NCBI GenBank assembly: GCA_016179225.1
Contig: JACORV010000012.1
Coordinates: 1-48,969 of the forward strand
Reading direction: 5' to 3'
Source of the DNA: Gemmatimonadota bacterium
Lineage (GTDB): Bacteria > Gemmatimonadota > Gemmatimonadetes > Gemmatimonadales > JACORV01
Length of the DNA stretch: 48,969 nt
Part shown: positions 29,477 to 31,992 of the stretch, in pieces
Numbering within the stretch: position 1 is the first letter of the stretch
How the letters are laid out: each line of letters opens with the position of its first letter
Made by a program: the position numbers and the translations under genes
The notes under the pieces: generated by a model
What the model saw: the letters and a program-made list of their open reading frames with translations, nothing else
Databases searched by the model: none
What the model was told of the DNA's origin: nothing

Positions 29477-30432
29477 CCGCTTCGCAGGACCACAACCGCT
29501 CCCTGCACCGCTACGCCGTCGCCGTCGCATGCGCCACCTTCGTCCTGGTCGTTGCGGGCGGCCTGGTGACGAGCACCGGCTCGGGCCTCTCCGTCCCCGA
29601 CTGGCCGCTTTCCTTCGGGACGCTCTTCCCGACGATGGAGGGCGGCGTCCGCTTCGAGCACACCCATCGGCTCATCGCCGCGACCGTGGGGGCGCTGACG
29701 GTGGTCCTCGCCCTCTGGTTGGCCCGCCGCGAGCCCCGGGGCTGGGTTCGCGGGCTCGGCTTCGCCGCCGTGGGCGCCGTCATCGTCCAGGGCGTCCTCG
29801 GCGGGCTCACCGTGCTGTTCAAGCTGCCGGCGCCGATCTCGGTCGCCCACGCGAGCCTGGCGGTGGTCTTCTTCGGCCTCACCGCATCGCTGGCGCTCGT
29901 CACCTCGCCGAGCTGGCTCGCCCCGCCGCACCCCGAGTCCGACGCGGGCAGCCCGTCCACCCGGATCCTCGCCCTCACGACCGCGGCCGCGATCTATTTC
30001 CAGATCCTCCTGGGGGCGCTGGTGCGCCACACCGGCGCCGCCCTCGCGATTCCGGACTTTCCGCTCGCCTTTGGACGGCTCCTCCCGCCGATCACCTCGT
30101 CGCTGGTCGCCTACCAGCTCGCGCACCGCGCCGGCGCCGCCGTGGTCGGCCTCCTGGTGCTCTGGACCGCGATCCGGGTGCTGAGACGCCATGGCGCCCA
30201 GCCCCTGCTCCGCCGGCCGGCGCTCGCCCTGGTCGCCCTCCTCGGCTTCCAGATCTTACTCGGCGGACTGACGATCTGGACGCGGAAGGCGGTCATTCCC
30301 ACCACCGCGCACGTGGCGACCGGAGCGCTGCTGCTCGTAACGTCGGTGATGCTCGCCCTGCGCGCCCAGCACCTCCTGTTGGCCCCGACGGGCGCGCACC
30401 AGGCGCTCGCCCCCCAGGGCGCGACCACATGA
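29473..30432 (+). CDS. ctaA: Haem A synthase (COX15/CtaA family)
   Basis: CATFVLVVAGGLVTSTGSGLSVPDWPLSFGTLFPTMEGGVRFEHTHRLIAATVG...LGALVRHTGAALAIPDFPLAFG...QLAHRAGAAVVG. Confidence 0.92.
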   Translation: MTASQDHNRSLHRYAVAVACATFVLVVAGGLVTSTGSGLSVPDWPLSFGTLFPTMEGGVRFEHTHRLIAATVGALTVVLALWLARREPRGWVRGLGFAAVGAVIVQGVLGGLTVLFKLPAPISVAHASLAVVFFGLTASLALVTSPSWLAPPHPESDAGSPSTRILALTTAAAIYFQILLGALVRHTGAALAIPDFPLAFGRLLPPITSSLVAYQLAHRAGAAVVGLLVLWTAIRVLRRHGAQPLLRRPALALVALLGFQILLGGLTIWTRKAVIPTTAHVATGALLLVTSVMLALRAQHLLLAPTGAHQALAPQGATT

Positions 30433-31319
30433 GCGCGTCGGTCGGGCTGCCGGCCCACCCGCTCGCCCGCGCGCGGCTCGCGGACTTTCTTGCCCTGACC
30501 AAGCCGCGGATCACGCTGCTGGTGGTCCTCACGACATCCGTCGGCTTCCTCGCGGCCGCGGGCAGCTCCGCCGATTTGGTGCTGCTCGTCCACACCCTCG
30601 CCGGCACGGCGCTAGTCGCCGCCGCCGCCAGCGCGCTCAACCAGGTCGCCGAGCGGGAAGCGGACGCCGAGATGCGCCGCACCGCGCGCCGCCCCCTGCC
30701 CGCCGGCCGGCTCGCGACCGGTGAAGCCGCCGTCTTCGGCGCGGCCCTGGCCCTTTCGGGCGCCCTGTACCTCGCGGCCGCGGTGAACCCGCTGGCCAGC
30801 GCCCTCGCGGTGCTGACCGCGGCGAGTTATCTGCTGCTCTACACGCCGCTCAAGAAGGTCACGTCCCTCGCCACCGTGGTCGGCGCCGTGCCCGGCGCCA
30901 TGCCGCCCATGATCGGCTGGGCGGCGGCGCGCGGGACCCTCGGAGTGGAGGCGTGGATCCTCTTCGCGATCGTCTTCTTCTGGCAGATGCCGCACTTCCT
31001 GGCCATCGCGGCGATCTACCGCCACGACTACCAGCGCGCCGGTTTCCGGGTGCTTCCCGTCGTGGACCCCGCGGGCGCGAGCACCGGCCGGCAGTCCGCA
31101 CTCTACGGCCTGGCCCTCATCCCGATCAGTCTGCTCCCCTCCTTCGTGGGCCTGGCGGGGCCAGGCTATTTCTTCGCGGCCCTCCTCCTCGGCATCGGGT
31201 TCGTGCTGCTCAGCGTCAGGCTCGCGCTCGATCCCTCGAGCCTTGGAAAAGCCCGCAGCCTGTTCAGGTTCTCCCTGATCTATCTGCCGCTCCTCTGGAC
31301 GGCGCTGCTGGTCGGCTAG
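30429..31319 (+). CDS. ctaB: Protohaem IX farnesyltransferase (haem O synthase)
   Basis: In-frame ATG at 30429; FLALTKPRITLLVVLTTSVGFL...ALNQVAEREADAEMRRTARRPLPAGRL...LYTPLKKVTSLATVVGAVPGAMPPMIGWAA. Confidence 0.94.
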   Translation: MSASVGLPAHPLARARLADFLALTKPRITLLVVLTTSVGFLAAAGSSADLVLLVHTLAGTALVAAAASALNQVAEREADAEMRRTARRPLPAGRLATGEAAVFGAALALSGALYLAAAVNPLASALAVLTAASYLLLYTPLKKVTSLATVVGAVPGAMPPMIGWAAARGTLGVEAWILFAIVFFWQMPHFLAIAAIYRHDYQRAGFRVLPVVDPAGASTGRQSALYGLALIPISLLPSFVGLAGPGYFFAALLLGIGFVLLSVRLALDPSSLGKARSLFRFSLIYLPLLWTALLVG

Positions 31320-31468
31320 TGCCGCTACAACTGTTCGGCTGCGGTCAGTCGAGGGCTGAAGCCCTCGCTCGGCGTTGGCGCGTCCTGAAGGACGCCGCCT
31401 CGGGCACGCTTCAGCGTGCGCCGGAGGCCGAGCGAGCCCTTCAGGGCTCGACTGCCTCGGGTCACTAG
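31316..31468. mobile_element. MITE-like element 1 with four internal hairpins
   Basis: CTAGTG...CACTAG termini; left end CTAGTGCCGCTACAACT resembles the terminus of element 2; hairpins GAGGGC-TGAA-GCCCTC (31351-31366), GCGTCC-TGAA-GGACGC (31380-31395), GCACGC-TTCA-GCGTGC (31404-31419), GAGCCC-TTCA-GGGCTC (31434-31449). Confidence 0.7.
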
Positions 31469-31479
31469 CCCTCCCCCCC

Positions 31480-31899
31480 GTGCCGCTCGACCTCCTGCCG
31501 GCCGTCAACGCCACGTTGAACGGCGTCACCGCGATGCTGCTCGTCACCGGCTGGACCCTGATCAGGCGCCGGCGCATCTTGGCCCACCGCGCCTGCATGA
31601 TCGCCGCCTTCTCGGTGTCGGTGCTGTTCCTCACGTCCTACCTGTACTACCACGCTCACATCGGCTCGAAGCCCTTTCCCGGCCGGGGCTGGATTCGACC
31701 GGTCTACTTCGCTATCCTGATTTCTCACACGGTGCTGGCGGCCGCAATCGTGCCGCTGGCCCTGACGACCCTGTACCGCGGCTTGGCCGCTCAATATCCG
31801 AAGCACAAGCGCATCGCGCGCTGGACGCTGCCCTTATGGCTCTACGTCTCGGTGACCGGCGTCGTCGTCTATCTGCTGCTCTATCGCCTGTACTCCTAG
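31480..31899 (+). CDS. DUF420-family small membrane protein
   Basis: GTG start; 139 aa: LPAVNATLNGVTAMLLVTGWTLIRRRRILAHRACMIAAFSVSVLFLTSYLYYHAHIGSKPFPGRGWIRPVYFAILISHTVLAAAIVPLALTTLYRGL...; matches the DUF420 pattern. Confidence 0.82.
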   Translation: MPLDLLPAVNATLNGVTAMLLVTGWTLIRRRRILAHRACMIAAFSVSVLFLTSYLYYHAHIGSKPFPGRGWIRPVYFAILISHTVLAAAIVPLALTTLYRGLAAQYPKHKRIARWTLPLWLYVSVTGVVVYLLLYRLYS

Positions 31900-31992
31900 T
31901 GCCGTTCCAACTTGTTTCGCTAAGAGGCGTGTCTGAGTGCGCTACCCGACAGCTTGCCAAGATTCGGGGCAACATAGTTGGAACGGCACTAG
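31896..31992. mobile_element. MITE-like element 2 with 17-bp perfect terminal inverted repeats
   Basis: Left end CTAGTGCCGTTCCAACT; right end AGTTGGAACGGCACTAG (exact reverse complement); 97 bp, non-coding. Confidence 0.8.

Follow-up and report, generated by a model that had tools for sequence, protein, structure and literature searches.

A REPIN-like four-hairpin array within a MITE of a Gemmatimonadota genome, and related repeats beside IS200-type transposase genes in its relatives

REPINs and BIMEs are short palindromes that are set as inverted pairs and dispersed through genomes, and in REPtrons related repeats flank a gene for a Y1 HUH transposase (PMC3116915, PMC2817692, PMC6006769). 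Their stems carry compensated changes; classical REPs number in the hundreds and have a GTAG or GTGG foot, and the transposase belongs to class 2. Three other groups of Y1 transposases bear on the locus described here. TnpA-Y1 subclass 1.2, found mainly in Cyanobacteria and Bacteroidetes, is marked by Y---Q--HH, generally has no terminal secondary structures, and is listed without REPs; class 3 has Y----Q, with four residues between, and a 5′ foot of CnGA (PMC6006769). The accessible part of the report on TIRYTs and TIRtrons (PMC3733652) describes Y1 genes that have long or double palindromes on their flanks, in families of moderate size that include Acidobacteria, the TIRs of which share GGGGWSAS or are mutually unrelated. 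Most TIRYTs are assigned to subclass 2.1, not to class 1 (PMC6006769). Finally, bacterial MITEs have short TIRs and no coding capacity, insert next to genes, and leave empty sites in relatives. Our literature search found no description of REPs for the phylum Gemmatimonadota.

The window, that is, the whole stretch of 48,969 bases that we analyzed, contains a hairpin array between a ctaB-type gene and a DUF420 gene (Table 1). A preliminary description had placed four hairpins with TGAA or TTCA loops at 31350 to 31450, and all four are present there and perfect. The length of 16 bp given for them is right for the inner pair, but the outer hairpins span 18 nt, and the whole element extends past these limits to a CTAG on either side. 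The outer arms (31346 to 31373 and 31427 to 31454) are 28-nt inverted repeats, complementary at 24 of 28 positions (86%). As had been reported, all four mismatches are in stem positions, and each is compensated within its own hairpin (GAGGGC/GCCCTC versus GAGCCC/GGGCTC). The array is a dispersed DNA repeat composed of two mirror-image REP units, which face each other in inverted orientation as they do in REPINs and BIMEs. Unlike the repeats of those systems, each REP here has two hairpins, joined by CTCGGC, and on reading the sequence there is no GT[AG]G foot 5′ of a hairpin; in its place is CAGT or, if the other strand is read, CCGA. Of the ends of the surrounding MITE, the left TIR, CTAGTGCCGCTACAACT, is intact, and the right TIR is eroded to TCACTAG.

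Table 1. Features of the ctaB-DUF420 region (positions in the window)
Feature	Position	Strand	Remarks
ctaB-type UbiA prenyltransferase gene	30429..31319	+	PF01040; TAG stop inside CTAG at the left end of the element
Composite mobile repeat (MITE carrying REPIN)	31316..31468	.	CTAG at 31316-31319 and 31465-31468
REP unit 1 (outer hairpin, linker CTCGGC at 31368-31373, inner hairpin)	31346..31395	+	Order as beside tnpA genes in relatives
Outer hairpin, left (GAGGGC-TGAA-GCCCTC)	31350..31367	+	18 nt; 7-bp stem including an extra C-G pair
Inner hairpin, left (GCGTCC-TGAA-GGACGC)	31380..31395	+	6-bp stem
REP unit 2, inverted (inner hairpin, linker GCCGAG at 31427-31432, outer hairpin)	31404..31454	-	
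Inner hairpin, right (GCACGC-TTCA-GCGTGC)	31404..31419	-	6-bp stem
Outer hairpin, right (GAGCCC-TTCA-GGGCTC)	31433..31450	-	18 nt; 7-bp stem
DUF420 gene (inferred GTG start)	31480..31899	+	PF04238; TAG stop inside CTAG of the second MITE
Second, short MITE, 97 bp	31896..31992	.	CTAGTGCCGTTCCAACT ... AGTTGGAACGGCACTAG, perfect 17-bp arms

These four are the only TGAA/TTCA hairpins with stems of at least 6 bp in the window. Among 100 control sequences generated by an order-1 Markov model, the mean number of such hairpins was 0.05 and the maximum was 1, and none had two within 110 nt. Relative to dinucleotide shuffles, the z-scores of the fold were −3.95 (RNA) and −4.78 (DNA). Both of the alternative folds that had been envisaged are feasible: the long duplex, which is the minimum-energy fold of the RNA (−75.0 kcal/mol), and the four small hairpins alone (−47.1 kcal/mol; the best fold with the pair span limited to 20 nt gave −52.4).

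We gathered 39 distinct arrays from Gemmatimonadota, 34 of which could be parsed at both ends; these 34 have 26 distinct stems. The four loop-adjacent base pairs are Watson-Crick in 96% of cells, a figure inflated by the collection criterion, under which two of three segments had to contain a hairpin with 4 bp or more. Between the two ends of an array, the agreement at those stem positions is 54%. Since the arrays compared are related to one another, it is the contrast between the local and the cross-end values that is informative. Differences between ends were compensated within the hairpin in 59 cases and uncompensated in 26, many of the latter coming from the outermost pairs or from a small number of rows that were misparsed. 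Between relatives, the stems differ while the loops and the linker stay. The stems of the full copies in the genome of the window are nearly invariant; consequently, when copies were checked for covariation, as had been proposed, compensation was found between array ends and between relatives, not among within-genome copies. With respect to the selection for structure suggested earlier, conservation is thus supported for the single local hairpins and not for the long duplex, which has no conservation of its own and arises because the two REP copies stand inverted.

Related hairpin doublets adjoin genes matching Y1_Tnp in sister-family Gemmatimonadota (genomes G060, G042, and G016). The transposase gene has one two-hairpin REP on each side, inverted, in G060, and one full four-hairpin array on each side in G042. 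Of 300 genomes in the phylum, 57 had a match to a 125-residue transposase query, and the named scan gave 24 transposase loci, mostly in Gemmatimonadetes MAGs. At 23 of these loci, TNAA/TTNA-type hairpins numbered 3.7/kb up to 350 nt from the gene and 0.083/kb more than 700 nt away, and at 11 of the 23 such hairpins were on both sides. Looser units of a hairpin plus CTCGGC (3.5/kb versus 0.46/kb) were on both sides at 13 of 23 loci and on at least one side at 18. Five loci (L130, L131, L136, L142, and L143) are without TGAA-type doublets, yet on reading they have the order outer hairpin-CTCGGC-inner hairpin-GCCGAG-outer hairpin. A side observation concerns L130, L131, L136, and L143, where the loops are TGAGA/TGTAA and the outer stems CCCGGGC/CGCGCCC; the CTCGGC and GCCGAG linkers are kept, and the transposase is of the same family. 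The arrangement of REPtrons, with a Y1 transposase gene between related REPs, is seen in the relatives and not in the genome of the window. The latter had no match to Y1_Tnp even at an E value of 10, but in an assembly with a completeness of 72% this absence is weak evidence. The congeneric genomes G001 and G002 likewise gave no Y1_Tnp match, and neither did G003.

The transposase matches PF01797 and, above the cutoff, the NCBIfam IS200/IS605 profile. The HUH histidines and the catalytic Y, as Y-x3-Q-x3-H, are among the residues that do not vary in it, and IS608 TnpA is among its PDB relatives. It therefore combines HUH, Y---Q, and an IS200 profile score above the cutoff, the features of class 1 (IS200/IS605-type Y1); as judged from its sequence, the transposase of the relatives is of the IS200 type and not a canonical RAYT. 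The motif Y---Q--[HRK]H is found in 24 of 30 transposase frames, with the exact HH in about half, and several of the rest are truncated. By motif only, this would place the enzyme near subclass 1.2, which it also resembles in having divergent copies within a genome; unlike in that subclass, hairpin doublets flank the gene and the host is a member of the Gemmatimonadota. Class 3 was considered and rejected. It shares with the present case an IS-like Y motif and the presence of atypical, repeated secondary structures around the gene, and its foot fits on one strand, as the GCCGAG strand puts CCGA ahead of the outer hairpin, but three residues lie between Y and Q here and four there. The double palindromes beside a Y1 gene, in families of moderate size, also recall TIRYTs, but the TIRs described in the accessible part of that report differ from the repeats found here.

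From these findings, we think it probable that the array is a REPIN-like nonautonomous element, linked to Y1 in relatives, that in this genome forms the interior of a MITE and has spread with it. The cognate enzyme would be the IS200-type Y1 HUH transposase of the sister-family Gemmatimonadota. By analogy with the IS608 TnpA and the E. coli TnpA_REP, this enzyme may bind to the hairpins when the DNA is single stranded, with cleavage and rejoining taking place at the feet of the REPs. In the lineage of the window, where no such transposase was detected, the REPIN would have turned into the interior of a MITE with the TIR (CTAG)TGCCGTTCCAACTTG. The copies in this genome would most likely have spread by transposition of that MITE, with a putative enzyme that acts on the TIRs being provided in trans.

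Copies were located by sequence searches of the assembly of this genome. There were 14 matches, several at 88 to 94% identity over the whole element, with complete or partial arrays at about nine sites besides that in the window (∼10 in total). Read with their flanks, most full copies are homologous outward past the hairpins to CTAGTGCCGnTnCAACTTG ends. Both MITE ends are kept in the copies on contigs C81, C153, and C76 and one end in those on C9, C78, C99, and C12; because the copy on C21 has neither, not every copy spread as the interior of a MITE. The inner-hairpin core, CGTCCTNAAGGACG, occurs 10 times in this genome (control, 0), 23 times in G060 (the maximum among 300 genomes), and 20 times in G219, in counts that tally palindromic TTAA loops twice, once per strand. 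In the other family, a genome typically has zero to two such cores, about as many as the control yields there. At 10 cores here and at most 23 in any of the 300 genomes, the repeats are low-copy, unlike classical REPs. A degenerate outer-hairpin pattern with 2 mismatches was also tried and was uninformative, as control matches outnumbered real ones.

The element has the terminal inverted repeats of a MITE (the right one eroded in the window copy) and no coding capacity, and it resembles bacterial MITEs also in its gene-adjacent insertion and in the empty sites in relatives; it differs from them in its REPIN interior and in having longer relatives, bounded by the same TIRs, in which a GIY-YIG ORF stands in place of a known transposase. 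The array might be merely the interior of a TGCCGTTCCAACTTG-ended MITE, its likeness to the transposase-flanking repeats being historical and Y1 having no action in this family. We consider this unlikely. It agrees with the TIRs on most copies in this genome and with the lack of Y1_Tnp here and in G001 to G003, but arrays without TIRs occur both in the same genus, where G001 (98% complete and without Y1_Tnp) has one full array on contig C319, and on C21 of this genome; the REPIN therefore exists apart from the MITE.

The strong fold between two codirectional genes could instead indicate a cis-acting structured RNA or a terminator or attenuator specific to the ctaB-DUF420 junction, and the preliminary description had proposed a stable small RNA there. 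Such a role is very improbable, and the small RNA finds no support. In the congeners G001 and G002, ctaB and DUF420 are a few tens of bases apart and the array is absent from the gap; it recurs elsewhere in the genome of the window, a scan of the window gave no Rfam match, and the variation of the stems among relatives around constant loops and linker also speaks against it. The element may have an effect on the mRNA of ctaB or DUF420. Least credible of all, to the point of being negligible, is a REPIN driven by a canonical RAYT (TnpA_REP class 2, with GTAG-footed REPs), which the REPtron-like layout in the relatives would suit, but which is disfavored by profile score and motif (the RAYT model NF047646 gives 18 to 32 bits against a cutoff of 80, failing by about 50 bits, and Y---NP is in 0 of 30 frames) and disagrees with the feet beside the hairpins.

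The reading of the array as a REPIN carried by a MITE leads to the MITE itself. The short MITE downstream of DUF420 shares its TIR with the REPIN-bearing MITE and has no REP inside. Its empty site is clean in G001, which has CTTCTAGCGGCCGCC, with a single CTAG, versus CTCCTAG-element-CACTAGCGGCCGCC in the window; the orthologous site of the REPIN-bearing MITE is empty in the congeners but has diverged. Both MITEs in the window terminate in CTAG, and the target duplication may be CTAG or TA.

The TIR CTAGTGCCGTTCCAACTTG, with 2 mismatches or fewer, occurs 24 times in the forward and 24 times in the reverse orientation in G028 (control, 0 and 1) and is rare elsewhere. Many of the matches in G028 are pairs about 90 bp apart, and that genome is rich in the short MITE. 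At positions 871 to 1193 of L172 (contig C116 of G028), a GIY-YIG ORF of 93 codons lies between a pair of TIRs, and its last codons and stop are supplied by the TIR itself. The same TIRs surround a GIY-YIG ORF, also of about 93 codons and 60% identical to that of G028, at 1498 to 1822 of L179 (contig C62 of G303), the ends of which read CTCG...CTCG, a direct repeat and possible 4-bp target duplication that would fit a duplication of four bases in the window MITEs as well. A broken GIY-YIG fragment in G028 has one TIR. For GIY-YIG relatives below about 50% identity, the best flanking inverted repeats matched at 13 to 15 of 20 positions, with no long matching ends; only the two close intact ORFs and the one fragment are therefore tied to the TIRs. 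The ORFs that we found inside these TIRs are of the GIY-YIG type, and no autonomous form encoding a known transposase came to light. Titles and the beginnings of abstracts on bacterial GIY-YIG elements with TIRs held nothing relevant.

These data suggest that MITEs of the window type may derive from a GIY-YIG element. One could go further and suppose that the autonomous form of the TIR family has a GIY-YIG nuclease only, makes 4-bp CTAG/CTCG duplications, and mobilizes the REPIN-bearing MITEs, so that a class 1-linked REPIN would have been captured and spread by a nuclease-based element in another family; we offer this as a speculation with little chance of being right.

The array ties two-hairpin REPs to a Y1 transposase that appears to be of the IS200 type and not of the RAYT type, and it offers a case with which to study how IS200 transposases came to process REPs. 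Here, too, one mobile repeat can be read inside another, and members of the same genus supply the empty sites.
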